A stretch of 64,000 nucleotides of DNA from positions 620,001-684,000 of the forward strand of contig NZ_CP077604.1 of the NCBI RefSeq assembly GCF_019048865.1, in the 5' to 3' direction. How positions within the stretch are numbered: the stretch's first letter is position 1; every line of letters begins with the position of its first letter. The DNA is from Aquihabitans sp. G128. GTDB lineage: Bacteria > Actinomycetota > Acidimicrobiia > Acidimicrobiales > Iamiaceae. This document shows, piece by piece, positions 1-14,903 of this stretch. The notes beneath the pieces were generated by a model. The model worked only from the letters and a program-made list of their open reading frames with translations, was not told where the DNA came from and did not search any database. The position numbers and the translations under genes were made by a program.

Positions 1-1611
1 CGAGACCTGCTCCAGGCGGTGCGGCTCCGGCTCGATGCCGGGGGCGCCCTCGCGCCCGGCGAAGCACTCGTCGCCGCCCAGGAGGCGTGGCGCACCTTCG
101 ATGCCGCCCTGACCGAGCGCCTGGCACGGATCGCGGTGGCCGAGGGGGCCGGCATCGAGGCCGAGATCCTGGTGGCGCGAGGCGTGGCCCAGCAGGGCCG
201 GGCCGCCGAGGCCGATGCCGCGCTCGCGGCGCTGGTCGCGGGTGCTCGCGGCGATGCCGAGCGGGTGGCCGCCGTGGCGGCGCGTGCCGAGCTCCTCGTC
301 TTCTTCTCCGACGCAGCCCGGACGGCGATCGCCGCCATCGAGGCCGTCGAGGCCCAGGTGGCCGATCCCGCCCTCCTCGTGGACCTGGTGGCCAAGCGCG
401 GCCTCCTCCTGCACTCGCTCGGCGAGTCGGTCGCCGCGCTCAGCCTCCTCGAGCCGCTCCTGGACGACCTGCGCGACGACACGCTGCGCCTGGCCTGCTT
501 CGCCGTCGCCACCGGGGCGACCGCCACCGGCCAGGGTTCGGTGGCGCTGGCCGCCTGCGACCGGGCCGAGCGGGCCGGGCGGGCCACCGGCTCCGACCCC
601 ATGCTGGTGGAGCTGTCGCGCTGCGCGGCGCTGGGCATGCTCGGGCGGCTGGACGAGGCGATGGCCCTCACCCGCCGCCGCTACGACGAGGCGGTGGCCG
701 ACGGTGCCCGGCACCGCCAGGCCTGGTTCGCCTGGGCTCGAGGCGGCCTGCTGATCAGCAAGGGCCACGCCGGCGCCGCGGCCCGCTGGTGCACCGAGGC
801 CCGGGCCCTCCTGGCGGAGGTCGGCCACCGGCCCGCCGAGCGGCTGGCGGCCAACGACCTGGCCCGGGCCCTGGCCGTCGCCGGCCGCCCGGACGAAGCC
901 GAGGCCGTGCTGGCCTCGGTCGACGAGGTCGAGTCGTCCGGCGGGCTCTTCGGCGACGATGGCGTCCGGCTGGTGGCCCAGGGCTGGATCCGCGCCGCCC
1001 GTGGCGACCACGACGGGGCGAGAGCCCTGCTCCGGCGGGCGGCCGAGGTGCACGGCGCCGTCGGCCACCACTACCCGGCGCTGCACGCCCTGGCCGACGT
1101 CGCTCGCGTGGGCGGGGTCGTCGGGGTGCAGGACGAGGTGCGGCGCCTCGCGGCGCTGGTGGAGGGCGACCTCGCCCACGCCCAGGTGCTGCTGGTCGAC
1201 GCCCTGGCGGCCGAGGACCCCGGGGCGCTGCTCGTGGCGGCCGATGCGCTCGAGCGGGTGGGCTTCGACCTCGGTGCCGCCGAGGCCGCCATGGTCGCCG
1301 CCGACCACCTGGAGCACCGGGGCGACCGCCGGGCTGCGGCGGCTGCGGCTCACCGCGCCGCGGCGCTGCTGGGCCGCTGCGGCTCGCCGGCCACGCCGGC
1401 CACGCGGGTGCGCGACGAGCCGCCGGTGCTGTCGGGGCGCGAGCAGCAGGTGGCGGCGCTGGCCGGGGCGGGTCGCTCGAACCGGGACATCGCCGAGGAG
1501 CTCGTCCTGTCGGTGCGCACCGTCGAGACCCACCTCCAGCGGGCGTACCAGAAGCTGGGCATCACCAGCCGGGACCAGCTGGGCCCGGCGCTCGCCGGGG
1601 CCGGTCGCTAG
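1..1611 (+). CDS. LuxR-family transcriptional regulator, C-terminal part (left edge partial)
   Basis: The frame is open to the left edge, so the true start and probably an N-terminal ATPase or sensor domain lie outside the window. The visible 536 residues are an alanine- and leucine-rich helical array resembling TPR repeats, followed by a LuxR/FixJ helix-turn-helix in the last 60 residues ([18 protein letters not shown], then [20 protein letters not shown]). This layout matches the large LAL-type or TPR-containing LuxR regulators, which bind DNA through the C-terminal domain. A GTG at position 19 could serve as a start, but there is no reason to prefer it over a longer gene. The stop is followed by a strong inverted repeat and then a gene on the other strand. 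Its target genes cannot be told from the sequence. Confidence 0.85.
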
Positions 1612-1646
1612 CTCGGACCATCCCGAGCGCGGCGCTGGCGAGGGGG

Positions 1647-1696
1647 ACCCCGGCCCCGGGCTCCGTGATGGAGGTCCGGGGCACCGGGGCCGGGGT
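1647..1696. terminator. GC-rich inverted repeat after the LuxR gene
   Basis: An 11-bp perfect inverted repeat, ACCCCGGCCCC at 1647-1657 and its complement at 1686-1696, lies 36 bases past the LuxR stop codon in a convergent gap. There is no T-run, which is usual for terminators in high-GC actinobacteria. It could end transcription from both sides. The rest of the gap (1612-1875) shows nothing else recognisable. Confidence 0.5.
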
Positions 1697-1875
1697 GGAC
1701 CGGCGCGCAGGGTGGCGCCGGCAACCGAGCTCCCGAGCGGTCCCGCCGGGGACGCGGGTCCCCGAACCGCCCGGGTGCTCAGGCCGGGGGGAGAGCACCG
1801 ACACCTGACCACGGGAGGGCCGCTCGGCGCATCGTGGCGCGCTACGTCACCTGCGGGCCGGGACTACGTAGGGGC

Positions 1876-2431
1876 TCAGGAGGGGACCGGCGGGTAGCCG
1901 GCCAGGTGGTGCAGGACCGTCTCGTAGTGGGCGCCCACGTCGATCCGGGTGATGTCGTCCAACCGGATGCTCCGGGTGTCGTCGGCCCACTCGGCGGCGC
2001 TCGAGACGTCGAGGAAGGTGACGCTCTTGGCCCCGATCCGGACCGGCCGGCCGATGGCGCACACGGTGGGGTCGGCCGCCTCGGTGTACAGCGTGACCAG
2101 GGGGGAACTGCGTGGCGGCGCTGTGCAACAGGTCCTCGATCGAACCGGTGTCGAGGTCGACCGCCTCGGGCTCCTCCCCGGCCCAGCCGAGCGCCCGGGT
2201 GATGAACGCGTCGTCGCCCTGGGTCTCCACCTCGCGGACCGTGTCGAGGCGGATGGCCGACCAGCCGTTCAGCCCGACGTCGTAGACGAGGTGCAGCAGG
2301 GCCCACTGGCCGTCGACGCCGACCACGAAGCCCTCGAGGTGGTCGGCCTTCCAGAGGTTGCGCCGGGCCAGCACGGGGTGGCCGCTCTCGAGCGCCTCGC
2401 GGAGCGCACGTCGGTTGGCCTTGCGTCCCAT
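1876..2431 (-). CDS. conserved hypothetical protein, frame interrupted at a G-run
   Basis: I do not recognise the family. The first part (start at 2431) reads MGRKANRRALREALESGHPV and continues through residues such as WALLHLVYDVGLNGWSAIRL to about position 2105. The reading then has to change frame at a run of six G (2100-2105, C on the coding strand) to continue as LVTLYTEAADPTVCAIGRPV and end at 1876. With five C in the run the two halves join into one protein of about 184 residues. No signal peptide or membrane segment is visible, so it is probably a small cytoplasmic protein. It diverges from the acyl-CoA dehydrogenase gene across a 131-bp gap with a palindromic operator. The break looks like a base-calling error but could be a real frameshift. 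Confidence 0.6.
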
Positions 2432-2480
2432 CAGGACATCCTTGTCGGCGGGAACGGGCGCTGCTGGAGCGGGCTCCCGA

Positions 2481-2513
2481 ACTTGACCGAGCGGTCAAGT
2501 CGCCGGGTAGCGT
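2481..2513 (+). promoter_or_regulatory. palindromic operator overlapping a promoter of the acyl-CoA dehydrogenase gene
   Basis: ACTTGACC-GAGC-GGTCAAGT (2481-2500) is a perfect palindrome with 8-bp arms. Its left arm contains a -35-like TTGACC (2483-2488), and a -10-like TAGCGT follows at 2508-2513, 19 bases further on. A repressor dimer bound here would cover the -35. The spacing and symmetry resemble TetR-family operators found upstream of acyl-CoA dehydrogenase genes; which regulator binds is unknown, and no TetR gene lies in the window. The site could also act on the divergent gene. Confidence 0.55.
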
Positions 2514-2562
2514 GGCATCCACGTGCCGGCCAGGGGTTGGTCGGCCTACCGGAGGTGGCCCC

Positions 2563-3804
2563 GTGTACCAGTGGACCGACGAGCAGGAGATGGTGCGAGG
2601 CGCCGTCCGGCAGTTCATCGACAAGGAGATCCGGCCCCGCATCGAGGAGTTCGAGCACGGCGACACCCCGCCCTACGACGTGCTCCGCAAGATGTTCAAG
2701 GAGTTCGGCATGGACGCCGCGGCGCGCGAGCGCTTCGCCAAGCAGATCGCGTTCGAGACGCTGGTGTCCGAGGCCGCCGAGAAGGGCGAGGCCGCGCCGG
2801 AGAAGCCCAAGCGCGACGGCGACGGCGGCGCGTCGTCGCTGACCCTCATCCCGATCATCGAGCTGTGCAAGGTGTGCCCGGGCATGGTCACCGCCATGGG
2901 CGTGAGCATGGGCCTCACCTCGGCCGCCATCAGCTCGAAGGGCACCATCCGCCAGAAGGAGCGCTGGGTCCCGGACCTGCTCACCATGGACAAGGTGGGC
3001 GCCTGGGCCATCACCGAGCCCGGCTCCGGCTCCGGCGCGTTCGGCTCCATGAAGGCCACGGCCCGCAAGGACGGCGACGAGTACGTCCTCAGCGGCTCGA
3101 AGACCTTCATCACCAACGGCCCCTACGCCGACACCATCGTCTACATCTGCAAGCTCGACGAGGGGAACGACCCCAAGGACCGCAAGATCCTATCGTTCGT
3201 GCTCGACAAGGGCACCCCCGGCCTGGAGCAGTCCAAGCCGCTGCGCAAGATGGGCATGCACTCCTCGCCCACCGGCGAGCTGTTCCTCGACGACGTGCGC
3301 GTGGGCATCGACCGCCTCGTCGGCGAGAGCGAGGACGTCGCCAAGGGCGGCCGCGAGGGCGCCAAGGCCACCTTCATGCAGGAGCGCTCCGGCGTGGCCG
3401 CCATGAGCCTCGGCATCATCGAGGAGTGCCTGAGCCTCTCGGTCCAGTACGCCAAGGACCGGGTGCAGTTCGGCGAGCCCATCGGCAACTTCCAGCTCAT
3501 CCAGGACAAGCTGGCCCGCATGGAGGTGGCCCGCCTCAACGTCGAGAACCTGGTGTTCCGCACCATCGAGATGTCGGCCGCCGGCCACTCCATGACCCTC
3601 GCCGAGGCGTCGGCCATGAAGCTCTACTCCGCCCGTGCCGCCACCGAGGTCGCCCTCGAAGCGGTCCAGGTCTTCGGCGGCAACGGCTACATGAGCGAGT
3701 TCCGCGTCGAGCAGCTCGCCCGCGACGCCAAGGTCCTCCAGATCTACGCCGGCACCGACGAGATCCAGATCACCCACATCGCTCGGGACCTCCTCAGGCG
3801 GTAG
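2563..3804 (+). CDS. acyl-CoA dehydrogenase family protein
   Basis: A 413-residue flavoprotein of the acyl-CoA dehydrogenase superfamily, expected to oxidise an acyl-CoA thioester to the enoyl-CoA with FAD and pass electrons to electron-transfer flavoprotein. Visible hallmarks are the N-terminal helical segment (QWTDEQEMVRGAVRQFIDKE), the flavin-binding strand (WAITEPGSGSGAFGSMKATA, then GSKTFITNG) and the C-terminal helix ending GTDEIQITHIARDLLRR. An unusual charged stretch rich in K, E and P sits near residue 75 (EKGEAAPEKPKRDGDGG). I chose the GTG at 2563 because GGAGG at 2551-2555 precedes it with a good spacing; a GTG or ATG further upstream is less likely. The 3' end, encoding the last 19 residues, is copied in the tandem repeat downstream. 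Substrate chain length cannot be told. Confidence 0.9.
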   Translation: MYQWTDEQEMVRGAVRQFIDKEIRPRIEEFEHGDTPPYDVLRKMFKEFGMDAAARERFAKQIAFETLVSEAAEKGEAAPEKPKRDGDGGASSLTLIPIIELCKVCPGMVTAMGVSMGLTSAAISSKGTIRQKERWVPDLLTMDKVGAWAITEPGSGSGAFGSMKATARKDGDEYVLSGSKTFITNGPYADTIVYICKLDEGNDPKDRKILSFVLDKGTPGLEQSKPLRKMGMHSSPTGELFLDDVRVGIDRLVGESEDVAKGGREGAKATFMQERSGVAAMSLGIIEECLSLSVQYAKDRVQFGEPIGNFQLIQDKLARMEVARLNVENLVFRTIEMSAAGHSMTLAEASAMKLYSARAATEVALEAVQVFGGNGYMSEFRVEQLARDAKVLQIYAGTDEIQITHIARDLLRR

Positions 3805-3845
3805 TCGCCTGGCGGCTCCTGCCGCCTTCGCAGGTCCCGAGCGAT
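3778..3845 (+). terminator. long nested hairpin at the acyl-CoA dehydrogenase stop codon (copy 1)
   Basis: ATCGCTCGGGACCT (3778-3791) is perfectly complementary to AGGTCCCGAGCGAT (3832-3845). The 40-base interior has smaller hairpins (AGGCG...CGCCT and GGCGG...CCGCC). The outer left arm lies inside the coding sequence, so the structure straddles the stop codon. It probably terminates transcription or protects the 3' end. Confidence 0.55.
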
Positions 3846-4079
3846 CTCTGTGCCACCCGGGTCGTCGCGCCTGGCGGGATCGCCGCGCACCGTTGGCCCT
3901 CGCCTGGCGGCTCGGGGAGCTGTCCTTCCCGCTCTCGGGCTTGCTTCGCGGCGCCCGGGCCCGCTCGGGGCCCGCTCGCCTTCGGCGAAGGGGTTGTGCC
4001 CGGGCCTCCTCCGTCGGCTCCAGACGTCTCGTTGCCGCCTTCGGCGGTCGCCGGCACCGACGAGATCCAGATCACCCAC

Positions 4080-4147
4080 ATCGCTCGGGACCTCCTCAGG
4101 CGGTAGTCGCCTGGCGGCTCCTGCCGCCTTCGCAGGTCCCGAGCGAT
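4080..4147 (+). terminator. long nested hairpin, second copy in the tandem repeat
   Basis: This is the same 14-bp stem and nested interior as the hairpin 302 bases upstream, carried by the duplicated unit. It lies between the acyl-CoA dehydrogenase and the convergent response regulator gene, so a doubled terminator is one possible consequence. Confidence 0.5.
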
Positions 4148-4372
4148 CTCTGTGCCACCCGGGTCGTCGCGCCTGGCGGGATCGCCGCGCACCGTTGGCC
4201 CTCGCCTGGCGGCTCGGGGAGCTGTCCTTCCCGCTCTCGGGCTTGCTTCGCGGCGCCCGGGCCCGCTCGGGGCCCGCTCGCCTTCGGCGAAGGGGTTGTG
4301 CCCGGGCCTCCTCCGTCGGCTCCAGACGTCTCGTTGCCGCCTTCGGCGAAGGGGCTGTCGGTGGCGGTCCGG

Positions 4373-5030
4373 CTAGGGGAGGAGGCGGTAGCCGACGCGC
4401 CAGACGGTCTCGATCTTGTCCTTGCCGATCTTGCTCCGCAGCGACTTCACGTGGGAGTCGACGACGTTCGACATGCCGTCGAAGTGGAGGTCCCAGACCT
4501 TGTCGAGGATCTCGGCGCGCTCGAGCACCTCGCCGGGGCGGCGCATGAACAGCTCGAGGAGGGCGTGCTCCTTCGGCCGCAGCGCGATCGGTTCGCCACC
4601 GCGCGCCACGGCCCTGGTGGCGGGGTCGAGGGTCAGGTCGCCGACGGTGAGCACCGTCGGGCGCTCCTGGGGGGGCTCGTCGGGTGAGGGCCTCGATCCG
4701 GGCCGACAGCTCGGCGGCGGCGAACGGCTTCGTGAGGTAGTCGTCGGCGCCGGCTCGCAGGCCGGTCACGCGCTGGTCGACCGCGCTGTTGCCGGTGAGC
4801 ATCAGTATCGGCGCCCAGCGGCCGCGGGTGCGGAGCTCCTGGCAGACCGAGATGCCGTCGCGGGTGGGCAGGCCCCAGTCGAGGACGATGACGTCGAAGT
4901 CGAACTCGGTGGCCATCCACAGGCCCTCGTCGCCGGAGCCGGCGACCTCCACCACGTGGCCCTCGCGGCCCAGGAGCGTGCGCACCATGGAGGCGATGTC
5001 CGGATCGTCCTCGACGAGCAGCGCCCTCAC
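4373..5030 (-). CDS. OmpR/PhoB-type response regulator, frame interrupted at a G-run
   Basis: A two-domain response regulator. The receiver domain starts at the GTG at 5030 (VRALLVEDDPDIASMVRTLL) and shows the acidic pocket (EDD), the phospho-acceptor aspartate in VIVLDWGLPTRDG and the KPF lysine. The winged-helix DNA-binding domain (LTVGDLTLDPATRAVARGGE, HALLELFMRRPGEVLERAEI, VWRVGYRLLP) is in a different frame, and the two join if the run of seven G at 4669-4675 is read as six. About 218 residues in total, normal for the family. It overlaps the upstream receiver gene by 4 bases (GTGA), so the two are co-transcribed. Both diverge from the giant hybrid kinase gene, the obvious candidate phosphodonor. 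Confidence 0.8.
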
Positions 5031-5449
5031 GTGGCCGGCCCGTCGACGTCCGGCGTGGACATCGCCACCAGGGCGGCGTCGCAGAGGTCCTGGGCGGTGT
5101 ACGGCTTGCGGAGCACGTGGTGGCCGGAGCGTTCCACGGATCGACGGACCTCGGCGTCGAACTGGCCGGTGGTGAGGAGGATCCCGAGCGTCGGGTGGTT
5201 GGCGCGCAGGAGCGACGCGAGCTCGAGGCCGGTGCGGCCCGGCATCACGACGTCGGTGAACAAGAGGTGGAAGCGGGCGGGCGGCCGGACCGCGAGCAGG
5301 GCCTCCTCGGCGGTGCGGGCCTGGGTCACCCGGTAGCCGGCCCGTTCGAGGATCTTCGACGCCATGTGCAGCAACGGCACGTCGTCCTCCACCACGAGGA
5401 CGTGGCGGGGCTCGTTGCTCGAGTTCGAGGTCGTCGGGTCGTTCGTCAT
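5027..5449 (-). CDS. single-domain response regulator (receiver only)
   Basis: A 140-residue protein consisting of a short polar N-terminus (MTNDPTTSNSSNEP) and one receiver domain: VLVVEDDVPLLHMASKIL with the acidic pair, phospho-acceptor D in LLFTDVVMPGRTG, the conserved T/S strand (LLTTGQ) and K in LRKPYTAQDL. No output domain follows, so it likely acts as a phosphate shuttle or by protein contact. The ATG at 5449 starts the domain neatly. It overlaps the OmpR-type regulator gene (GTGA) and is divergent from the hybrid kinase, so the three probably form one signalling unit. Confidence 0.85.
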   Translation of the reverse strand: MTNDPTTSNSSNEPRHVLVVEDDVPLLHMASKILERAGYRVTQARTAEEALLAVRPPARFHLLFTDVVMPGRTGLELASLLRANHPTLGILLTTGQFDAEVRRSVERSGHHVLRKPYTAQDLCDAALVAMSTPDVDGPAT

Positions 5450-5567
5450 GGTGCGGCGGCCGGAAGGCCCCGATCCATCGGCCTCGCAGCGCCAGACCTG
5501 AGGACCTGCCGCCGGGCGGGACCGGACGGAGGCGGTCCCGGGTCGGGCGCGGACCCCGTCCGGGGGG

Positions 5568-8500
5568 TTGTGGCGGATCGCACGACCATCGGGGTGGGTG
5601 TTCGCGGCCCGGACGTCGAAGATGGGGAGGTGCCCCCCCGCTCCCTGGAGCTCGCTCCACCGTCGTTCGCGCGCCTTCGATGCAGTCGCCGCCCCGGCGG
5701 CCATCGTCGACCCGTCGGGCGAGGTGCTCGCCGTGAACGACGCCTGGCAGCTCGTGGTGGACCTGATGGCCGGTGCGCCCCCGCCGGCCGACGGGGCCAC
5801 CGTGGTCGGCGTCGGCGAGGACCTCGTGGGCGCCCTCTCCGGCGGCGGGGCGGCGATCGCTCCCCAGTTGCGACGGGTGCTGGCCGGCGATCGCGCCCTG
5901 TTCGAGGCCGACTGCTGCCTCGTCGGGCCGTTGGCCGACCAGTGGGTGCAGGTGCGGGCCTCGGCGGCGCCATCGGAGTCGGGTGGCGGGGCCGTCGTGA
6001 TCCTGGCCGACATCCACGCGCGCAAGCAGCTGGAAGCGCAGCTCGCCGACATGGCGGGGATCGACCGGCGGACGGGGCTGCCGGATCGGGGATCAGCGAT
6101 CGCCCTGCTCGCCCGCCAGTCCAGCGTCGGCCTCGCCACGCTGGTCGTCGTCGACCTCGCGGCGATCCCTGGGGCGGTGGCCGGCATCGGCGCGCCGGCG
6201 GTCGACCAGCTCGTCGCCCAGGTGGTGGCTCGGCTCCACCGCACGGTGCGGACCTCCGACGTGGTCTGCCGGCTCAGCGCCGAGCAGCTCGTGGTGGTGG
6301 CGCCCTCGCTCGATCCCCACGAGGTCGCCGGCCTGTGCGAGCGGCTCCGGCGGCGATGCTCGGCGCCGTACCAGGTGGGCGCCCAGCAGGTGACGCTGGT
6401 CGTCGGGGTGGCGTGGCGCACCGTCACGGCTCCCGACGACGTGCGGGTGGCGCTGGAGGAGGCCCAGGCCGAGGCGCGGCCCGCCGGTGCGCCGGCCGAG
6501 CTCTCGATGGTCGGGCCGTCCGGGTGGAGCAGGGCCCGCTCGATGGTCGACGAGGCCGCGGCCCTCACCGTCGACGAGGTCGTGCGGGCGCGCACCGCGA
6601 TGCTCGATGCGGTCGGCGAGGCCGTGCTCGCGCTCGACCCGCACGGCTTCGTGACCCACCTCAACGGGGCGGCGGAGCGCCTCTACGGCTGGACGAACGC
6701 CGAGGCGCAGGGCCACCACATCACCGAGGTCGGACCGGCCGACCTGACGGCGGCACAGGTCGCGGACATCGTCGAAGCCGTCGTCGCCGGCGGGTCGTGG
6801 GCCGGTGACCTCACGATCACCACCCGCACGGGCGGACCGTTCGCCGCCCAGGTCACCGCGGCGCCGCTGTACGTCGGCGGTGAGGTGGCGGCGGTGATCA
6901 CGTCCACCGTCGACGTCTCGGCCCGGCTGCGATCCCAGCCGCCTGGCCCGGCGGACGACGATGCGTGGGTGGACCCCGTCACCGGGCTGGCGTCGAACCG
7001 TGCCTTCAGCGCGACCTTGGCGTCGGACCTCGCCGAGGTGGCGGACCGGGAGGGCGGCGGGACCCTGACCCTCGTCCTCCTCGAGGTCGACGACCTGCCT
7101 CGGATCCAGCGGGCCGGCGGCGGGCTCGTGGTGGAGCAGCTGGTCCGGGCGGCCGCGCGGTCCCTCCGCGGCGCGGTGCACGACGGCGACCGCGTCGGAC
7201 GGCTGTCGGCCGGCGGCCTGGCGGTGACCTGCTCGCACCTGCGCGGCACCGGCAGCGGCCTGCGGTTCGCCGACGACCTCCGTGCCGCCATCCGCGGCCC
7301 CTTCGAGGCCGATGGGGGCGAGTGGGTGCTGCGCTCGTCGGCCGGCATCTCGCTCGGCGGCCACCCGAGCCCCGGGCCGGAGGAGGTCCTGCGCCGCGCC
7401 GACACCGCGCTCCAGCACGCCAAGCGCCAGCAGGGGACGTCTCGCGCCTACGACCAGGCGATGGATGTCGACCAGCGGCGCCGGGACGACCTCGACCACC
7501 TCGTCCGTCGAGCCGTCGCCGGCGGGCCCATCCCGCTCGCGTACCAGGCGATCACCCGGCTCGACGACGGCACCGTGGTCGGTGCCGAGGCGTTGCTGCG
7601 GCTCACCGATGCGAACGGGGTGCCGGTGGCTCCGCTGGAGGCCTTCGACGCCGCGGAGCGCTGTGGCCTCGCCCCCGAGCTGGGCCGCCAGGTGCTCGCC
7701 GTCGCGTGCGACGAGGCGGCTCGCTGGCAGCGCTTCCTGCCCGAGCGCACGCTCTCGATCGCCGTGAACCTCTCCGCCGAGCAGTTCCGTGACCGCAACA
7801 CCGCGTACCTGGTCGCCCAGGCCCTGGCCGCCGCCGACCTGGCGCCGTCGCGACTCACGCTCGAGATCGCCGAGTCGGTCCTGGTGGAGGATCCGGCCTG
7901 GTCGGCGCGCCAGCTGGCGGTGCTGAAGATGCAGGGGGTGCAGCTCGCCGCGGACGACTACGGCACCGGCCACACGTCGCTCCTCCACCTGAAGCGCTTC
8001 CCGTTGGACCTGATCAAGGTCGACCTGTCGCTGGTTGCCGGGCTCCCGGACAGCCCGGAGGACTCGGCGATCGTGTTCGCCACGATCCGCGTGGCCGAAG
8101 CCCTGGACCTCCAGGTGGTGGCCGAGGGCGTCGAGAACGAGCGCCAGCGCGAGGAGCTGCACCGCCTGGGGTGCGAGTTCGGCCAGGGCTACCTGTGGAG
8201 CACCGCCGTGGCCGGCGACGAGTTCCTCAAGCTCGTGCTGCGTCCCCGGACGGTGTTCGGCCGTGGGGCGGTGGAGGCCGCGCGCCAGCTCGACGAGGCG
8301 TCCCCCGGTCGCCGACCGGCATCGACGGGCGAGGTCGAGGAGCTCGATGCCGTGCTCCGCTCGCTGGCCCACGAGATCCGCACCCCGCTCACCGTGGCCA
8401 TGGGCTACGCGTCCCTGCTCGAAGCGGGCGACGACGAGGAGCAGGCGATGATCGCCACCAGCATCCGCAAGGCGACGGAGCGCATCAACCACCTCCTCGG

Positions 8501-8996
8501 CAACCTCGAGGACGTGCGCCTCATCGACCACGGTCGGCTGGAGCTCGATGCCGAGGTGCTCGACCTCGCCGATCTGGTCGAGGCGACCGTCGTCGACCTC
8601 CGGTCGATCGTCCGCGTCCCGCTCGAGGTGCAGCGCGCCGACCTCCCGGCGCTGGTCGACGCCGACCCGACGAGGATCGCGCAGGTCGTCGCCAACCTGG
8701 TCTCGAACGCGGCGAAGTTCGTCCGCCCCGGCTCACCGGTCGTCATCCGCGTCGACGTGGTCGGGGAGTGGGCGGAGGTGTCGGTCTCCGACGACGGGCC
8801 CGGGGTCGACGAAGCGGACCTGGGCCTGATCTACCGCAAGTACGGGCGGGCCGATGCCGCCCACCCGGGGTCCGGGCTCGGGCTCTACCTGGCTCGCGGC
8901 ACCGCCCGGGCGCACGGCGGCGACATCATGTACCGGCGCGGCCGTCCCGGATCGACCTTCACCCTCACCCTGCCTCGCTCCGCCGACGGCGCCTGA
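5568..8996 (+). CDS. PAS/GGDEF/PAS/GGDEF/EAL protein with a C-terminal histidine kinase
   Basis: An unusual fusion of about 1142 residues. In order: PAS-like region (36-150); GGDEF domain starting at IDRRTGLPDRG (about 164) whose signature is degenerate (RLSAEQL); second PAS (340-455); second GGDEF starting at DPVTGLASNRAF with a degenerate signature (RLSAGGL); EAL domain (655-890); HisKA with phospho-acceptor H near residue 935 (SLAHEIRTPLTVAMGYASLL); HATPase_c with N-box NLVSNAAKF, DDGPG and GSGLGLYLARG. The EAL domain keeps its usual catalytic set (GAEALLRL, VNLSAEQF, DDYGTG, IKVD, EGVE), so c-di-GMP hydrolysis is likely, while cyclase activity is not. It is divergent from two response regulators. 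The start is unsure: TTG 5568 gives the longest form, ATG 5622 is possible, and a seven-C run at about 5632 adds doubt. No membrane segment is seen. Confidence 0.88.
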   Translation: MWRIARPSGWVFAARTSKMGRCPPAPWSSLHRRSRAFDAVAAPAAIVDPSGEVLAVNDAWQLVVDLMAGAPPPADGATVVGVGEDLVGALSGGGAAIAPQLRRVLAGDRALFEADCCLVGPLADQWVQVRASAAPSESGGGAVVILADIHARKQLEAQLADMAGIDRRTGLPDRGSAIALLARQSSVGLATLVVVDLAAIPGAVAGIGAPAVDQLVAQVVARLHRTVRTSDVVCRLSAEQLVVVAPSLDPHEVAGLCERLRRRCSAPYQVGAQQVTLVVGVAWRTVTAPDDVRVALEEAQAEARPAGAPAELSMVGPSGWSRARSMVDEAAALTVDEVVRARTAMLDAVGEAVLALDPHGFVTHLNGAAERLYGWTNAEAQGHHITEVGPADLTAAQVADIVEAVVAGGSWAGDLTITTRTGGPFAAQVTAAPLYVGGEVAAVITSTVDVSARLRSQPPGPADDDAWVDPVTGLASNRAFSATLASDLAEVADREGGGTLTLVLLEVDDLPRIQRAGGGLVVEQLVRAAARSLRGAVHDGDRVGRLSAGGLAVTCSHLRGTGSGLRFADDLRAAIRGPFEADGGEWVLRSSAGISLGGHPSPGPEEVLRRADTALQHAKRQQGTSRAYDQAMDVDQRRRDDLDHLVRRAVAGGPIPLAYQAITRLDDGTVVGAEALLRLTDANGVPVAPLEAFDAAERCGLAPELGRQVLAVACDEAARWQRFLPERTLSIAVNLSAEQFRDRNTAYLVAQALAAADLAPSRLTLEIAESVLVEDPAWSARQLAVLKMQGVQLAADDYGTGHTSLLHLKRFPLDLIKVDLSLVAGLPDSPEDSAIVFATIRVAEALDLQVVAEGVENERQREELHRLGCEFGQGYLWSTAVAGDEFLKLVLRPRTVFGRGAVEAARQLDEASPGRRPASTGEVEELDAVLRSLAHEIRTPLTVAMGYASLLEAGDDEEQAMIATSIRKATERINHLLGNLEDVRLIDHGRLELDAEVLDLADLVEATVVDLRSIVRVPLEVQRADLPALVDADPTRIAQVVANLVSNAAKFVRPGSPVVIRVDVVGEWAEVSVSDDGPGVDEADLGLIYRKYGRADAAHPGSGLGLYLARGTARAHGGDIMYRRGRPGSTFTLTLPRSADGA

Positions 8997-9030
8997 CCAC
9001 GCTGCCAGCGACCAGGCCCGGCGACCAGCG

Positions 9031-10437
9031 CTAGGTGAAGGGGAGGGGTGGGGTGTGGTCGACGGTGACCCAGCGGCCCTTGCCGGCGCGCTTGGCGCGG
9101 TAGAGGGCGCGGTCGGCGGCGGTGAGGAGGTGGGCGAGGTCGCCCGCCTGGGGGTCGTCGGCGGCCACCAGCGCCACGCCGACGCTGCAGCCGATGTGGT
9201 GGGCGTGGCCGTCGACCTCGATCGGGACGTCCATGGTGGCCACCAGCCGTTCGGCCACGCGCTCGGCGGTGCTGGGCTCGTCGAGGTCTGCGCACCACAC
9301 GGCGAACTCGTCGCCGCCGAGGCGCACCAGCAGGTCGGTGGCCCGCACGGCGCCCTCCATCCGGCGCGCCGCCTCGGTGAGGATGCGATCGCCGACCTGG
9401 TGGCCGTGGTGGTCGTTCACCGCCTTGAAGTCGTCGAGGTCGACGAAGAGCACGGCGGCCAGCGCCGAGCGGTCCTCGTCGACCCGGCTCTCGAGCTGGG
9501 TGCGGTTGGCCAGCCCGGTGAGCGAGTCGGTGGTGGCCGCGGCCACCAGGTCGCGCTGGGCGGTCGACCACTCGATGGCCAGGCGCATGATCTGCAGGGT
9601 GTTCTCGACCTGGCGGCGGTGGGTCGCCAGCATCGGGCCCGGGCGGGATCGCCAAGAGACGACGACGGCCGACGGGTGGGGCTGGCCGGGCGTGGTGACC
9701 GGCACGGCCCACACGGCACGGAGGTCGCCCGCGGCGGCAGCGGCGGCCACCGATGGCGGCAGGCGATCGAGGTCGACCTCCACCTCGGTGGCGGCGCTGT
9801 GGACGGCTCGTCCCCACGGGGTGTCGGCGTCGTCGGCGCGCGTCGGCGGCAGCTCCACGGCCAGCTCGGCCGGCAGCGACGCCGAGCGGGCTCGGTTCCG
9901 GTAGCCGCCGTCGGGCTCTCGGACCAGGATCGTGGTGCGGGTGCCGGGCATGGTGTCGTCGTGCCAGACGGCCACCTGGGCCAGCAGGTCGTCGAGGTCG
10001 GCGCCGGCCAGGAGCAGGTTGAGGAAGCCCAGCAGCCGGCCGGTCGCCTCGTGCGGGCTGCCCCACACCAGGAACAGGCCCGTGCCGTCGGGCTCGCGGA
10101 GGTCGATGCCCCCGAACTCGAGGCTGATCCAGCCGTCGCGGGCGTGCCGGAGGCGGAGGGCCACCCGGATGCGGTCCTCGGCGCCGCGGGCCGCCTCGGC
10201 CATGGTCTCGATGACGATCTCGTGGTCGTCCTCGTGGAGGATCTCCAGCGCGTTGCGCCCCAGCAGGTCCGCCGACGCCGTGCCGAGCAGGAAGGCGCTC
10301 GACTCGCTCATCCACCGGATGGTCCCGTCGTCGGCGAGGGCGGCGAAGAGCACGGTGCCGTCGTCGAGCAGGCGCCGGGCGACGGCCTCGTCGAAGAACG
10401 GGTGGTCGGCGCCCGTCGGCGGCTCGGGAACGGTCAT
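9031..10437 (-). CDS. diguanylate cyclase with N-terminal PAS and GAF-like regions
   Basis: A 468-residue protein expected to make c-di-GMP from two GTP. Residues 20-130 resemble a PAS domain (FAALADDGTIRWMSESSAFL, then LLGRNALEILHEDD), 140-290 a GAF-like sensor (DDTMPGTRTTILVREPDGG), and 305-465 the GGDEF domain (TDSLTGLANRTQLESRV, FVDLDDFKAVNDHHGHQVGD). The active-site signature RLGGDEF near residue 370 is intact, and RxxD (RATD) sits five residues before it, so the product-inhibition I-site is also present. I start at the ATG at 10437; a longer upstream frame exists but is low-complexity. Together with the neighbouring hybrid protein this gives one synthase and one likely hydrolase of c-di-GMP side by side. 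The two genes converge with only 34 bases between their stops. Confidence 0.9.
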   Translation of the reverse strand: MTVPEPPTGADHPFFDEAVARRLLDDGTVLFAALADDGTIRWMSESSAFLLGTASADLLGRNALEILHEDDHEIVIETMAEAARGAEDRIRVALRLRHARDGWISLEFGGIDLREPDGTGLFLVWGSPHEATGRLLGFLNLLLAGADLDDLLAQVAVWHDDTMPGTRTTILVREPDGGYRNRARSASLPAELAVELPPTRADDADTPWGRAVHSAATEVEVDLDRLPPSVAAAAAAGDLRAVWAVPVTTPGQPHPSAVVVSWRSRPGPMLATHRRQVENTLQIMRLAIEWSTAQRDLVAAATTDSLTGLANRTQLESRVDEDRSALAAVLFVDLDDFKAVNDHHGHQVGDRILTEAARRMEGAVRATDLLVRLGGDEFAVWCADLDEPSTAERVAERLVATMDVPIEVDGHAHHIGCSVGVALVAADDPQAGDLAHLLTAADRALYRAKRAGKGRWVTVDHTPPLPFT

Positions 10438-10486
10438 TGCGGACGCAACATACCCCGACGCCTGGGCCGCCGGACCAGGGCCACCG

Positions 10487-10966
10487 TCAGCAGGCGCAGC
10501 CGACCTCCGACACCGGGCCCTCGCCCGCACGGGAGCCCTCGACCGGGAAGCCCTCGGCCTGCCACGCCGAGAGGCCGCCGATGAGCTCCTTGACCCGGAA
10601 CCCGAGGGCGGCCAGGTTGGCCGCGGTGCGGGTGGAGGCGTTGCAGGCGGGGCCCCAGCAGTACGTGACGTAGAGGGCAGCCGGGTCCAGGTCGGCCGTG
10701 GTGGCGGCGTCGATGGTGGCGTGCGGGAGGTTCACGGCGCCGGGGAGGTGGGCCTCGGCGTAGCCGCCGGGCCGGCGGCCGTCGACGACCACCAGCCCGC
10801 CCACGCCGGCGGCGAGGTCGGCGTGCAGGTCGGCAGGGTCGGTCTCGAAGGCCAGCTTGGCCCGGAAGTGGGCGAGGGCGGCCTGGGGGTCGGCGGCGGG
10901 CACCGCCTCGACCGCCCCGGCGGGCCGGGCGACGGGGGTGGGGGAGGCGGTGGGCGTCTGGTCCAT
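10487..10966 (-). CDS. rhodanese-like domain protein
   Basis: A 159-residue single-domain rhodanese homologue. After a 30-residue proline/alanine-rich leader come VVVDGRRPGGYAEAHLPGAV (the conserved D-R and H-I/L-PGA motifs) and the active-site loop YCWGPACNASTRTAANL with a cysteine positioned to carry a persulfide. It ends with GGLSAWQAEGFPVEG, typical of the fold, and a cysteine pair (CAC) at the C-terminus. Sulfur transfer is the expected activity; the acceptor is unknown. It starts at an ATG at 10966 and stands apart from its neighbours, 62 bases from the acyl-CoA dehydrogenase gene. Confidence 0.85.
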   Translation of the reverse strand: MDQTPTASPTPVARPAGAVEAVPAADPQAALAHFRAKLAFETDPADLHADLAAGVGGLVVVDGRRPGGYAEAHLPGAVNLPHATIDAATTADLDPAALYVTYCWGPACNASTRTAANLAALGFRVKELIGGLSAWQAEGFPVEGSRAGEGPVSEVGCAC

Positions 10967-11028
10967 GCGCCGAACGCTACGACGGCGCGCCCACCTCGGT
11001 GCAGCGAGTACTCGGCAGGCGAGGGGCC

Positions 11029-12177
11029 TCAGACGCCCAGGGAGCGCCCGATGATCTCCTTCATGATCTCGGTGGTGCCGCCGTAGATGGTGGTGATCCG
11101 GGCGTCGGTGTAGGCCCGGGCGATGGGGTACTCGAGCATGTAGCCGTAGCCGCCGTGGAGCTGGACGCAGGTGTCGACGGTGCGCTTCTGCAGCTCCGTG
11201 CACCACCACTTCGCCTCGGCGGCCTCCTCGGCGGTGAGCTCGCCGACGTTGAGCGCCTCGATGCAGCGGTCGACGAACACCTGGGCGATGTCGATCTCGG
11301 TGCGCAGCTCGGCCAGCCTGAACCGGCTGTTCTGGAAGGCGCCGACCGGCTGGCCGAACGCCGTCCGGTCCTTCACGTACTCGAGCGTCCAGCCGAGCGC
11401 AGCCTCGGCGGCGGCCACCGCGCTGGCGGCGATCGACAGCCGCTCCTGGGGCAGGTTGTGCACCAGGTGCACGAAGCCCTGGCCCTCGGTGCCGAGCAGG
11501 TTGGCCACCGGCACCTGGACGTCGGTGAAGAACAGCTCGGCGGTGTCCTGGCTGTGCAGCCCGACCTTCTCCAGGTTGCGACCGCGCTCGAAGCCCTCCA
11601 TGCCGCGCTCGAGGATGACCAGGCTCATGCCCTTGTGGCGTTGCGTCGGGTCGGTCTTGACCGCGGTGATCACCAGGTCGGCGTTGATGCCGTTGGTGAT
11701 GAACGTCTTCGAGCCGTTGACCACGTAGGCGTCGCCGTCCCGGATGGCCGTGGTGCCCATGGAGGCGAGGTCCGAGCCGATGCCGGGCTCGGTCATGGCG
11801 ACGGCGGTGATCAGGTCCCCGGAGACGATGCCCGGGAGCCACCGCTCCTTCTGCTCGTCGGTGCAGAGCGAGAGGAAGTACGGCAGGCAGATGTCGTTGT
11901 GCAGCGTGATGCCCAGGCCGGCGCCGCCGGTGCCGGCGCGCTGCAGCTCCTCGCCGATGATGAGGTTGTAGGTGAAGTCCTCCACGCCGCCGCCTCCGTA
12001 GGCCTCCGGCACGTCGGTGCCGAGGAAGCCGGAGGCGCCGGCGGCCGAGAAGAGCTCGCGGGGCACGATCCCGTCGGTCTCCCACTGGAGGTGGTGGGGC
12101 ACGATCTCCTTGTCGACGAACTGCCGGAAGGCGGCCCGGAACATCTCGTGCTCGTCGGTGAAGATGGTGCGGCGCAT
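11029..12177 (-). CDS. acyl-CoA dehydrogenase
   Basis: A 382-residue acyl-CoA dehydrogenase with all family landmarks: FTDEHEMFRAAFRQFVDKEI at the N-terminus, VAMTEPGIGSDLASMGTTAI (flavin contact) and GSKTFITNGI, the VGLHSQDTAELFFTDVQVP strand, and the C-terminal LHGGYGYMLEYPIARAY and YGGTTEIMKEIIGRSLG. It is of normal length, unlike the larger homologue at 2563-3804 with its charged insert. It would oxidise acyl-CoA in fatty acid or branched-chain amino acid breakdown; the substrate is not predictable. The ATG at 12177 is preferred over an upstream in-frame start because the family begins at this point. A hairpin just upstream ends the preceding lipoprotein gene, so this gene probably has its own promoter. 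Confidence 0.92.
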   Translation of the reverse strand: MRRTIFTDEHEMFRAAFRQFVDKEIVPHHLQWETDGIVPRELFSAAGASGFLGTDVPEAYGGGGVEDFTYNLIIGEELQRAGTGGAGLGITLHNDICLPYFLSLCTDEQKERWLPGIVSGDLITAVAMTEPGIGSDLASMGTTAIRDGDAYVVNGSKTFITNGINADLVITAVKTDPTQRHKGMSLVILERGMEGFERGRNLEKVGLHSQDTAELFFTDVQVPVANLLGTEGQGFVHLVHNLPQERLSIAASAVAAAEAALGWTLEYVKDRTAFGQPVGAFQNSRFRLAELRTEIDIAQVFVDRCIEALNVGELTAEEAAEAKWWCTELQKRTVDTCVQLHGGYGYMLEYPIARAYTDARITTIYGGTTEIMKEIIGRSLGV

Positions 12178-12192
12178 GGGCCCATCCTGCCA

Positions 12193-12212
12193 GCCGGGCC
12201 CGGTGGCCCGGC
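12193..12212 (-). terminator. short perfect hairpin after the LppX-like lipoprotein gene
   Basis: GCCGGGCC (12193-12200) and GGCCCGGC (12205-12212) form an 8-bp perfect stem closed by a CGGT tetraloop, 33 bases past the stop of the lipoprotein gene on the minus strand. No T-run follows, but the compact GC stem is a good terminator candidate separating the two minus-strand genes. Confidence 0.5.
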
Positions 12213-12244
12213 CAGCCGGCGCCGGGCCGCTCACGCCAGCGGGA

Positions 12245-13153
12245 TCAGCCGCCCATCAGCTTGTCCAGCAGCGCATCGGCCTTGGCGCCGGTCAGCACCT
12301 TGCTGGCCTCGGGGGCATCGGGCACCTCGACGTCGTCGCCGACGTCGGTCAGCTCGACGGTGTAGTCGCCGCCGAGTGGCACGCCGCTGGGGGCGTCCAC
12401 CTCGAGCTGGAAGGTGCGGATGATGCCGTCGTCGCCCACCCAGACGTCGATGTTCAGGTCGACCGGCTTCTCCGAGGTCAGCGAGAGGGCGCTCTTGAAC
12501 GCCTCGGCATCGGCCCCGGCGCCCTCGACGGCTTCGTCGTAGGTCAGCGTGGTGGAGTACTGCTGGGTCTCCACGCCGTCGATCTCCTTGGTGCCCTCGG
12601 CCTTGGTGCCGTCCGCGCCGCGGAGGGCGACGATCACGCCGATGAGGTCGACGGGTGCGAAGTTGTCGGAGCTGGTGAGCAGGTCGGCGTCGCCCTCCAC
12701 CCAGGACTTGCCGTCGGGGATGGTGACGCCCACGTCGCCCTCGGCGTTGATCCAGAGCTTCTCGCCGTCGGCCAGCAGCTTGAGCTGGCCCTGCTGGCCC
12801 TTCCCGCCGTCGATGGTGATCTCGGCGTCGGCCACCAGGCCCTCGTAGTCGATCGACCCGTCCGTGGTCAGCTGGAACTTCTGGGCGCCGACGGTGAGGT
12901 TGGCCTCGGACTGCACGGAGAACCGGGGGTTGTCGAGCGTGGCGTTCACGGCGTCGGCCACGGCCTGGTCGGGGTCGTCGTCGGGGGCGATCGTGGTCGA
13001 GGTGTCGCCTTCGGTCGTGGTGGTCTTCCCGTCGTCCGCCGTGGTCGTCGTCTTGCCGCCATCGCCACCGGCGTCGGACCCGCCGCCGCTGGTGGAGCAG
13101 GCGGTCACGGACAGCAGGGCGGCCAGGGCCACGACGGCAACGGGTCGGCGCAT
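12245..13153 (-). CDS. LppX/LprAFG-like lipoprotein
   Basis: A 302-residue predicted lipoprotein. The N-terminus has a short basic start, a hydrophobic core and a lipobox with the acylated cysteine (LLSVTACS), then a 45-residue threonine/glycine/aspartate-rich linker containing TTTT runs, common in actinobacterial lipoproteins. The folded part (from about residue 60) has the beta-rich pattern of the LppX/LprAFG family, with FSVQSEANLTVGAQKFQL, DGEKLWINAEGDV and IRTFQLEVDAPSG. Members in Mycobacterium carry lipids in a hydrophobic cavity; a similar role at the cell envelope is inference. Start ATG at 13153. It stands alone between the Lrp regulator and an acyl-CoA dehydrogenase. Confidence 0.75.
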   Translation of the reverse strand: MRRPVAVVALAALLSVTACSTSGGGSDAGGDGGKTTTTADDGKTTTTEGDTSTTIAPDDDPDQAVADAVNATLDNPRFSVQSEANLTVGAQKFQLTTDGSIDYEGLVADAEITIDGGKGQQGQLKLLADGEKLWINAEGDVGVTIPDGKSWVEGDADLLTSSDNFAPVDLIGVIVALRGADGTKAEGTKEIDGVETQQYSTTLTYDEAVEGAGADAEAFKSALSLTSEKPVDLNIDVWVGDDGIIRTFQLEVDAPSGVPLGGDYTVELTDVGDDVEVPDAPEASKVLTGAKADALLDKLMGG

Positions 13154-13270
13154 GGGGATCGGGAGCTCCTCGGGGTGGAGGCGCCGCACCGGCGCCGGGT
13201 CCGCCCGTCCCTACCCGACCCTGAACCCGACAAACCCCCCGAACCGCCCAGTCCGCGAGCGCAGCTGCTG

Positions 13271-13786
13271 CTAGCGGGTGCCCCAGGAGTAGGTCTGCTT
13301 GACCAGATCGAGGTAGGTGAAGGCCTCGGCGCTGCGGACGCCGGGGGTGGCGCGGATGACGTCGTTGAGCAGGACCATCAGGTGGTCGGCGTCCTCGCAG
13401 ACCACCTCGAGGAGCAGGTCGAAGCCGCCGGAGGCGATGACCACGTAGTCGATCTCCGGGAGGTCGCCGAGGTTGGCGGCCAGCGCCCGCAGGTCGCCGT
13501 CGGCCCGCACGCCGATCATGGCCTGGACGGTGAAGCCCAGCGAGAGCGGGTCGGTGACGGCCACCACCTGCATGACGCCGGAGTCGATCAGGCGCTGCAC
13601 CCGCTGGCGCACCGCCGCCTGCGAGAGCCCGACCTCGGGGCCGAGCTTGGCGTAGGACATGCGGCCGTCGACCTGGAGCGCCCGCACGATGGCCTTGTCG
13701 ATCTCGTCGAGCACGGGCGGGGCGGGGCGGGCGGCCGAGCGGCCGTTGCGGCCCACGGGGGCGGTGGAGCGGGTGGGGCCTCCCAC
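13271..13786 (-). CDS. Lrp/AsnC-family transcriptional regulator
   Basis: About 171 residues: a short linker, then an N-terminal winged HTH (LDEIDKAIVRALQVDGRMSY, KLGPEVGLSQAAVRQRVQRL) and a C-terminal ligand-binding RAM domain (ALAANLGDLPEIDYVVIASG, FDLLLEVVCEDADHLMVLLN). Lrp-type proteins usually sense amino acids and control nearby catabolic genes. The GTG at 13786 begins one base after the stop of ald, so the two are co-transcribed. In Mycobacterium tuberculosis the Lrp-type AldR controls ald, and the same pairing here suggests alanine as effector, though lysine or polyamine-derived amino acids are possible given the upstream genes. A longer N-terminus is open in frame but looks non-coding. 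Confidence 0.9.
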   Translation of the reverse strand: MGGPTRSTAPVGRNGRSAARPAPPVLDEIDKAIVRALQVDGRMSYAKLGPEVGLSQAAVRQRVQRLIDSGVMQVVAVTDPLSLGFTVQAMIGVRADGDLRALAANLGDLPEIDYVVIASGGFDLLLEVVCEDADHLMVLLNDVIRATPGVRSAEAFTYLDLVKQTYSWGTR

Positions 13787-13787
13787 G

Positions 13788-14903
13788 TCAGCCCGCTCCC
13801 AGCAGCTCGGCCAGGGGCCGGTGCTCCTTGCCGAGCGCTTCGGCCACGGTGGCGTTGGCGATGGCACCGCCGACGGTGTTCACGCCGAGGGCCAGCGCGT
13901 CGTCGCGGCCCACCGCGGCGGCCACGCCGAGCGAGGCCAGCTCCGAGAGGTAGGGGAGCGTCACGTTGGTCAGGGCGTAGGTCGAGGTGTGGGGCACGGC
14001 CCCGGGCATGTTGCCCACGGCGTAGTGGATGACGCCGTGCTGCTCGAACACCGGGTCGTGGTGGGAGGTCTCGTGGGAGGTGGCGATGCACCCACCCTGG
14101 TCGATGGCGATGTCGACCACGACGGCGCCGGGCTTCATGGCCTTCACCAGGTCCTCGTCGACCACGATCGGGGCCTTGCCGCCGGCCACGAGCACCGCGC
14201 CGATCACCAGGTCGGCCTGGGTGACCACCCGCTCCACCTGGCCGCGGTTCGAGGCGAGGGTGGTGACCCGGCCCATCTGGATCTGGTCGACGTAGCGGAG
14301 CCGGTCGATGCTCTTGTCGAGCAGGTCGACCTCGGCCTCCAGGCCGGCGGCCATCCAGGCGGCGTTCCAGCCGACGTTGCCGGCCCCGAGCACGACCACG
14401 CTCGCGGGCCGGACGCCGGGGGCGCCGCCGAGCAGCACGCCCCGGCCGCCGTTGTGGCGCTCCAGGAAGTGGGCGCCCACCTGCACCGACATGCGCCCGG
14501 CGACCTCGCTCATGGGCGCCAGCAGCGGCAGGGCGCCGCCCTCGGTCTGCACGGTCTCGTAGGCGATGCCGGTGGTGCCGGCGGCCAGGAGGGCGTCGGC
14601 CACGCCCGGGTAGGCGGCGAGGTGCAGGTAGGTGAACAGCACGAGGTCCGGTCGCAGGAACGCGAGCTCGGACTCCTGGGGCTCCTTGACCTTGCAGATC
14701 AGCCCGGCCCGCTCCCAGACCTCCTCGGCGGTGGCCACCACCTCGGCGCCCACCGCGGCGAACTCGGCGTCGGGGATGCTGGCGCCGAGGCCGGCGCCGG
14801 CCTGCACCAGGACCGACACGCCGTGGCCGTGGAGCTCGCGCACCCCGTCGGGCGTGATGGCCACGCGACCCTCGTCGGGCTTGATCTCGGTGGGCACGCC
14901 CAC
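13788..14903 (-). CDS. ald: alanine dehydrogenase
   Basis: A 371-residue NAD-dependent alanine dehydrogenase that interconverts L-alanine and pyruvate plus ammonia. Visible features: GVPTEIKPDEGRVAITPDGV at the N-terminus, the catalytic lysine/histidine region (KVKEPQ, LHLAAYP), the Rossmann motif VVVLGAGNVGWNAA and the NMPGAVPHTSTYALTN segment typical of Ald. The GTG at 14903 gives a protein that starts one or two residues short of the family norm. A better-placed ATG at 14937, preceded by AAGGA, would extend it by eleven residues if a run of seven G at about 14924-14930 were read as six; I think that start is likely real. It is followed directly by the Lrp regulator gene. Confidence 0.92.
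   Translation of the reverse strand: MGVPTEIKPDEGRVAITPDGVRELHGHGVSVLVQAGAGLGASIPDAEFAAVGAEVVATAEEVWERAGLICKVKEPQESELAFLRPDLVLFTYLHLAAYPGVADALLAAGTTGIAYETVQTEGGALPLLAPMSEVAGRMSVQVGAHFLERHNGGRGVLLGGAPGVRPASVVVLGAGNVGWNAAWMAAGLEAEVDLLDKSIDRLRYVDQIQMGRVTTLASNRGQVERVVTQADLVIGAVLVAGGKAPIVVDEDLVKAMKPGAVVVDIAIDQGGCIATSHETSHHDPVFEQHGVIHYAVGNMPGAVPHTSTYALTNVTLPYLSELASLGVAAAVGRDDALALGVNTVGGAIANATVAEALGKEHRPLAELLGAG

Follow-up and report, generated by a model that had tools for sequence, protein, structure and literature searches.

Introduction

Links between cyclic di-GMP (c-di-GMP) and two-component signalling are mostly known to run from a receiver domain to a GGDEF or EAL output domain, or to pass through separate effectors. 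A histidine kinase that itself binds the second messenger is SgmT of the SgmT-DigR system of Myxococcus xanthus, which does so through a dead GGDEF domain (PMC3509222). In CckA, c-di-GMP bound in the ATPase domain switches the protein from kinase to phosphatase (PMC7288161). In Caulobacterales and Rhizobiales, HisKA, HATPase, HAMP and Hpt domains occur in proteins that also have an EAL domain (PMC9756655). Here we report on a 64,000-nucleotide stretch of the Aquihabitans sp. G128 genome (contig NZ_CP077604.1, positions 620,001 to 684,000; hereafter the window), in which a single gene encodes an EAL domain followed by a histidine kinase (the EAL-kinase), next to genes for two response regulators (RR1 and RR2). 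Joining an EAL domain to a kinase is not in itself new, being recorded in PMC9756655 and in a Peribacillus plasmid protein. The present locus adds a conserved lineage in which the EAL domain precedes the kinase, the same two kinds of receiver recur, and catalytically complete EAL sites occur beside incomplete ones.

Like SgmT-DigR, the locus combines a cytoplasmic histidine kinase that carries a c-di-GMP domain (catalytically dead in SgmT) with a DNA-binding response regulator, as judged from the accessible parts of that study (PMC3509222). SgmT, however, is described there as GAF-kinase-receiver-GGDEF with the GGDEF domain at its C-terminus, whereas in the window protein the EAL domain is N-terminal to the kinase and the protein contains no receiver (PMC3509222); unlike SgmT, its likely partners are a single receiver and an OmpR-type regulator encoded next door. 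By analogy the window protein may work like SgmT, without being a member of that class. Any resemblance to CckA would lie in a c-di-GMP-dependent switch from kinase to phosphatase; CckA binds c-di-GMP in its own ATPase domain (PMC7288161). What the proteins of PMC9756655 have in common with the window protein is the joining of EAL and kinase domains, a comparison that takes in their domain content and not their domain order or function; in the window protein GGDEF-EAL stands ahead of the kinase and Hpt is absent, although one relative (G433) has it. WP_252283631.1, annotated as 'PAS domain S-box protein' on a Peribacillus asahii plasmid, has PAS, GGDEF, EAL, HisKA and HATPase in one 1300-residue coding sequence; it differs in having a PAS domain between EAL and kinase, comes from another phylum, is 31.3% identical over the matched pieces, and no response regulator was found among the nine features listed around it. 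Three further plasmid matches (H3, H4, H7) give no clear additional case: neighbouring genes are joined in H3 and H7, and the record that contains H4 is unannotated. CckA is not known to carry an EAL domain. No characterised EAL-kinase was recognised in the literature searched, which covered few subscription journals and often only parts of papers, and a full-text search for Acidimicrobiia, c-di-GMP and histidine kinase together returned no paper.

Results

The EAL-kinase gene

The EAL-kinase gene occupies 5622-8996 on the plus strand, with a likely ATG start at 5622. Its frame is open over 1164 codons, from 5502 to 8993, and is followed by the stop; a C7 run close to the start (5633-5639) makes the exact N-terminus uncertain. 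The stop-free translation of 5568-8996 (1142 residues) contains, by Pfam, the order PAS-GGDEF-PAS-GGDEF-EAL-HisKA-HATPase_c, with every family above its cut-off and E-values from 4e-56 (EAL) to 4e-13 (HisKA). This agrees with the first-pass annotation, which had read the same domains in one frame from the sequence alone. PAS 1 (5673-6017) and GGDEF 1 (6054-6557) are each one of two stretches matched by PAS_4 and GGDEF, respectively, with approximate limits set by eye; PAS 1 was aligned with its counterparts in two relatives (G008b, G010b). PAS 2 (6603-6926, residues 346-453) is the best PAS_4 stretch and GGDEF 2 (6963-7433, residues 466-622) the best GGDEF stretch. Both GGDEF sites are degenerate, as had been noted (RLSAEQL in GGDEF 1, RLSAGGL in GGDEF 2), so neither has the intact GG(D/E)EF site of a diguanylate cyclase. 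GGDEF 1 keeps its RxxD motif (RTSD) and in this combination of degenerate site and intact RxxD is SgmT-like; GGDEF 2 has His for the Arg of RxxD. The position is not that of SgmT, where the GGDEF domain follows kinase and receiver, since the order here is GGDEF-EAL-kinase.

The EAL domain (7503-8204; PF00563, residues 646-879, 190 bits against a cut-off of 31.3) has all nine positions that correspond to RocR E175, N233, E265, D295, D296, K316, E352, E355 and Q372, and with them the fold and the complete metal and catalytic residues of a phosphodiesterase. A linker of 48 residues (880-927) separates it from the kinase part. The HisKA domain (8349-8528; residues 928-987, 50 bits against 27) carries the H-box HEIRTP, and the HATPase_c domain (8664-8978; residues 1033-1137, 77 bits against 26) carries the N-, G1- and G2-boxes, so the window protein has the full set of kinase boxes. 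The earlier claims of an intact EAL site and of intact kinase motifs thus held. No receiver domain (PF00072) was found in the protein by Pfam at an E-value of 0.1, which sets it apart from hybrid histidine kinases; such a domain is present in three fused relatives (G487, G527, G433). The peak 19-residue hydropathy (2.08) falls within GGDEF 1, and a membrane segment is therefore not suggested.

A family of EAL-kinases in the order

Relatives were searched with the whole protein (41 relatives), with an EAL-kinase profile (24 genomes of the family, scoring at most 64 candidates in each) and with a kinase profile (397 genomes of the order, at most 7 candidates in each), the last of which extended the EAL-kinase finds; domain content was read on the loci fetched for the best matches. 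The searches yielded at least 19 EAL-HisKA-HATPase proteins, which come from at least 13 genomes of this order, with an EAL-kinase found in 6 of the 24 family genomes. This genome (G000) and G010 have three each, G008 and G581 have two, and G004, G014, G015, G035, G487, G527, G458, G532 and G433 have one, such that 16 of the 18 further proteins sit in 12 other genomes. A class-wide search with the EAL-kinase profile (395 genomes, 3 candidates each) gave full-length matches only in the window's family among the matches listed. Of the 27 matches listed in a phylum search of 396 genomes, 17 were examined as loci L162-L178, and none of these had an EAL in its 1.5 kb flanks; no EAL genes adjoined the REC-kinases or the kinases of other classes at L179-L182.

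In one paralogue of this genome (L041), the reading frame changes within the EAL domain at a run of eight C (L041 4329-4336); this paralogue was excluded from the tables and trees of 18 members; in an early 12-member alignment it had appeared without the EAL motif, which sits in the other frame. In the kinase tree, one side of a branch (support 98/94) holds all 18 members used together with three REC-kinases, and within it the window protein groups with six other fused members (95/97), its sister being that of G004 (100/96). The EAL tree, which has a weak backbone with the fused members scattered over it, does not discriminate between single and repeated fusion. Repeated independent fusion of EAL domains onto one kinase clade, hinted at by this scatter, was considered and is not claimed here, as a single clade was not rejected (approximately unbiased test, p = 0.50; the constraint held the 18 members, G015e and cL020 together and placed two split-gene EALs outside).

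Related arrangements were seen at several other loci. In G036 and G451, of one genus, the EAL domain also lies beside a kinase of the same clade, but in two genes rather than one, the halves being adjacent divergent genes for REC-GGDEF-EAL and REC-HisKA-HATPase (by Pfam for G036). Split loci of this build, with the REC-GGDEF-EAL gene divergent from the REC-HisKA-HATPase gene of the same kinase clade, are L126 579-5363 and L124 351-5187. At L132 (2623-5682), a single frame reads GGDEF-EAL-HisKA-HATPase-REC-Hpt, a phosphorelay fused to EAL, and an OmpR-type regulator match adjoins it. At L051 (3885-5309; G015:C93), an EAL protein inside the window's EAL clade is without a kinase match, owing to loss, truncation or a frame break.

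Residue conservation in the two halves

The two halves of the fusion differ in how strictly their motifs are kept. All 18 aligned fused members retain the H-, N-, G1- and G2-boxes, while the nine EAL positions are complete in 14 and one is lost in each of the other four. In three of these (G014, G015 and the closest relative, G004), all within the window's kinase clade, the Glu of the AEGVE motif is Val; this is RocR E352, to which Rao et al. are said to have assigned in 2008 the role of general base. In the text available to us, RocR E352 is placed among the metal-coordinating residues and roles are given for E175, N233, E265, D295, D296 and E352 (PMC7911125). Apart from one Thr-to-Ser change in loop 6 of G014, the Glu-to-Val members keep the other tabulated EAL positions. 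In G433, the only such case among the 18, Q372 is replaced by Leu and a loop Gly by Ser. G487 keeps the nine positions, but its EAL motif contains a Thr and Asp replaces the first Glu of its LExxE stretch.

Loss of the AEGVE Glu was found in 3 of 57 aligned EAL domains (18 fused, 3 unfused kin and 36 ordinary) and in none of the 36 ordinary ones. In the window's EAL clade, which holds the seven fused members and the unfused G015e, the loss amounts to 3/8 as compared to 0/36 (one-sided Fisher, 0.004), and at least three changes of this residue are required on the EAL tree, losses and reversions not being told apart. The ordinary rows comprise 15 of the 21 EAL frames from control loci of this genome (>190 bits) and 21 rows from other genomes, taken at the even-numbered loci of L016-L028 and L054-L081 with the odd-numbered left out; the thresholds of 190 or 200 bits used to choose these rows favour intact sites.

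GGDEF 2 is degenerate in all seven members of the window's clade. Of the 11 members outside that clade, 8 have a site that reads GGDEF or AGDEF (G010a, G010b, G035, G487, G581a, G581b, G458, G532), from which the ancestor was probably an enzyme. The RxxD motif of GGDEF 1 is kept in 3/3 members aligned there, the window's included. Together, these patterns suggest a drift from enzyme towards sensor, in which the kinase is the retained output.

Two response regulators as candidate partners

RR1 (5027-5449, minus strand; PF00072, 65 bits) is a single receiver protein of 140 residues, divergent from the kinase gene. Its top NCBIfam match is to the PRK13557 kinases, within their C-terminal part (412-528 of 540), at 81 bits, far under the model cut-off. 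Its stop overlaps the start of RR2 by GTGA (5027-5030). RR2 comprises a receiver part with a GTG start (4653-5030, minus strand; PF00072, 101 bits) and an OmpR-type DNA-binding part (4373-4654, minus strand; Trans_reg_C PF00486, 87 bits). The two parts lie in different frames, with a G7 run (4669-4675) at the switch, whereas RR2 is a single frame in all four relatives compared (L044, L045, L046, L049). The first-pass annotation was right about the two receivers on the other strand and about their types, but it overlooked this break; by drawing the locus at 5027-8996 it also took in RR1 and the kinase gene and missed RR2 (4373-5030) and the diguanylate cyclase described below.

Across the 24 family genomes, both regulators go with the EAL-kinase. 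The RR1 profile gives four matches of at least 198 bits, all beside an EAL-kinase, with the next best at 95; the subfamily is thereby present in 4/6 genomes in which an EAL-kinase was found and in 0/18 others. For the RR2 subfamily the counts are 5/6 and 0/18. They include the window's RR2, which is in two pieces and outside the profile, on its location and a score of 196 bits for the receiver half alone. Four full-length RR2 matches score at least 438 bits, again all beside an EAL-kinase; the next scores are 303 in G004, which also has an EAL-kinase, 299 in G009 and 283 in G017. Held-out members scored 359-380 for RR2 and 101-123 for RR1 with three-member models, as compared to best outsiders of 303 and 95 scored with four-member models; on these leave-one-out scores RR1 is much less distinct from other receivers than RR2. 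If any RR1 or RR2 profile match above 25 bits is counted as a receiver, 11 of 19 EAL-kinases have one within 3 kb, as compared to 4 of 21 frames in this genome with an ordinary EAL domain (one-sided Fisher, 0.013). The 4.94 Mb contig of this genome has 28 EAL profile matches; the control frames come from 20 loci and represent 21 of the 23 EAL places elsewhere on it, and two of the four control matches are one receiver at L157.

We consider RR1 and RR2, from this association, the likely partners of the EAL-kinase, and the co-occurrence is seen across the family genomes without extending to every member. Several points weigh against the partnership. The two profiles were built from the neighbours of EAL-kinases themselves, so only the absence elsewhere is independent evidence. 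In the DNA fetched, 8 of the 19 EAL-kinases, both paralogues of this genome included, have no receiver within 3 kb, a count limited by contigs that end early (e.g. at L042). RR1 and the kinase gene are 1.26 kb apart in G014, and RR2 is broken in this assembly. Placement of the receivers also varies, being divergent in the window, in G014 and (RR2 only) in G015, downstream in G008 and upstream in G010. G000, G008 and G010 have two or three EAL-kinases each and one RR1/RR2 pair, and several sensors may therefore converge on one pair. At L123 (2475-9691), one OmpR-type regulator match lies between two convergent EAL-kinase genes.

Neighbouring features

A diguanylate cyclase gene (9031-10437, minus strand; PAS_4 32 bits, GGDEF 133 bits) converges with the kinase gene, and its product has both RATD and GGDEF, as first described; a GAF match in it stays under the cut-off. 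The convergent pair recurs at L042 of G004 (cyclase match of 558 bits), and among the loci fetched only G004 has a close match to this cyclase beside an EAL-kinase. The cyclase is thus a local feature, and its proposed place in a compact signalling set finds no support beyond the nearest relative. No structured RNAs were found in window positions 1-14000 at Rfam gathering scores, a promoter and terminator scan of 4300-9100 returned none, and no inverted repeats were reported in 4340-5700. At 3747-4348, the window contains a perfect tandem duplication of 302 bp (two copies, 100% matches). It spans the end of the gene at 2512-3804 (plus strand; an acyl-CoA dehydrogenase by eye) on its 3' side and the spacer that follows; it is a recent duplication or an assembly artefact.

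Discussion

In the model that we favour, the window protein would be a cytoplasmic sensor kinase that takes its input through the PAS-GGDEF*-PAS-GGDEF*-EAL half (asterisks mark degenerate sites) and gives its output through the HisKA-HATPase transmitter. The EAL domain would act as the kinase's c-di-GMP input, phosphate would pass to the OmpR-type transcription factor RR2 and to RR1, which is similar to hybrid-kinase receivers, and the c-di-GMP state together with the PAS signal would be converted into gene expression; from motifs and neighbours, we put this at even chances. The domain order, the conservation of family and motifs and the association with the neighbours are observed, and c-di-GMP binding, coupling of EAL to kinase and phosphotransfer to RR1 and RR2 are inferred from them. 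The EAL domain is read first as an input because its AEGVE Glu is Val in three near relatives and in none of the 36 ordinary EAL domains. A wider proposal, which we hold to be somewhat less likely than not, is that the Acidimicrobiia hold a sensor-kinase family in which the EAL domain has turned from phosphodiesterase into c-di-GMP gate, with several kinases per genome converging on one receiver and OmpR-type pair and the recurrent Glu-to-Val change marking the shift.

Some of our own observations count against this model. The complete EAL set in 14 of 18 members means that hydrolysis would usually still be possible. The contrast at the Glu site was picked after the data had been seen, shrinks to 3/21 as compared to 0/36 when all 21 family rows are used (p = 0.045), and concerns branches that are weakly supported within the window's clade. 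In addition, c-di-GMP altered neither autophosphorylation nor phosphotransfer of SgmT in the portion of that study at hand, so that binding of c-di-GMP need not mean gating (PMC3509222).

The strongest alternative is that the protein is a bifunctional enzyme, an active EAL phosphodiesterase under PAS and kinase control whose kinase separately drives RR1 and RR2, with both outputs mattering. The nine positions present in the window and in most members, as well as the GGDEF 2 sites that outside the window's clade still point to an enzymatic ancestor, fit this account. Replacement of the catalytic Glu in 3/7 of the window's clade while the kinase boxes are kept in 18/18, and decay of GGDEF 2 in 7/7, speak against it, and we regard it as possible but rather unlikely. 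The link between a c-di-GMP domain and a phosphorelay that was proposed at the outset accordingly survives as a real, conserved fusion, while breakdown of c-di-GMP as its essential half is weakened. The two accounts overlap for the window itself: as its EAL site is complete, the protein may also be an active phosphodiesterase, and it may then consume its own input.

It is improbable, though worth weighing, that the protein is an ordinary PAS-type sensor kinase in which EAL and GGDEF are a relic or a scaffold for localisation or dimerisation and c-di-GMP has no role in kinase control. Degenerate GGDEF sites and the loss of the catalytic Glu in 3/18 members agree with such decay, and the sole function assigned to the c-di-GMP domain of SgmT, in the text seen, is spatial sequestration (PMC3509222). 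The otherwise kept EAL sites of the Glu-to-Val members are not what would be expected of a relic.

The frame breaks at G7 in RR2 and at C8 in L041 reflect homopolymer indels of the assembly or phase-variable tracts. That these runs are real slippage tracts which switch the pathway off is a remote prospect: both frame breaks of this system fall on runs of seven or eight, but homopolymer indels are a usual error in long-read assemblies, and L149, another seemingly broken EAL gene, has no run of five or more at its break. That the fusion is itself an artefact of an assembly join or a frameshift is hardly credible, since, for all the homopolymer frame breaks in this assembly, the frame is open over its whole length and the recurrence of the EAL-kinase order in 18 further proteins, a check that the first-pass annotation had called for, refutes a join.

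Should the favoured model be true, signalling through a conserved EAL-kinase and its dedicated receivers would go in the opposite direction to most known links, from c-di-GMP state to phosphorelay, and gating of the kinase by the EAL domain would provide a direct route from c-di-GMP through the phosphorelay to transcription. Relatives with complete and with Glu-to-Val EAL sites make the question of enzyme or sensor directly testable on natural orthologues. In these bacteria, the EAL-kinase may report the c-di-GMP state to gene expression.

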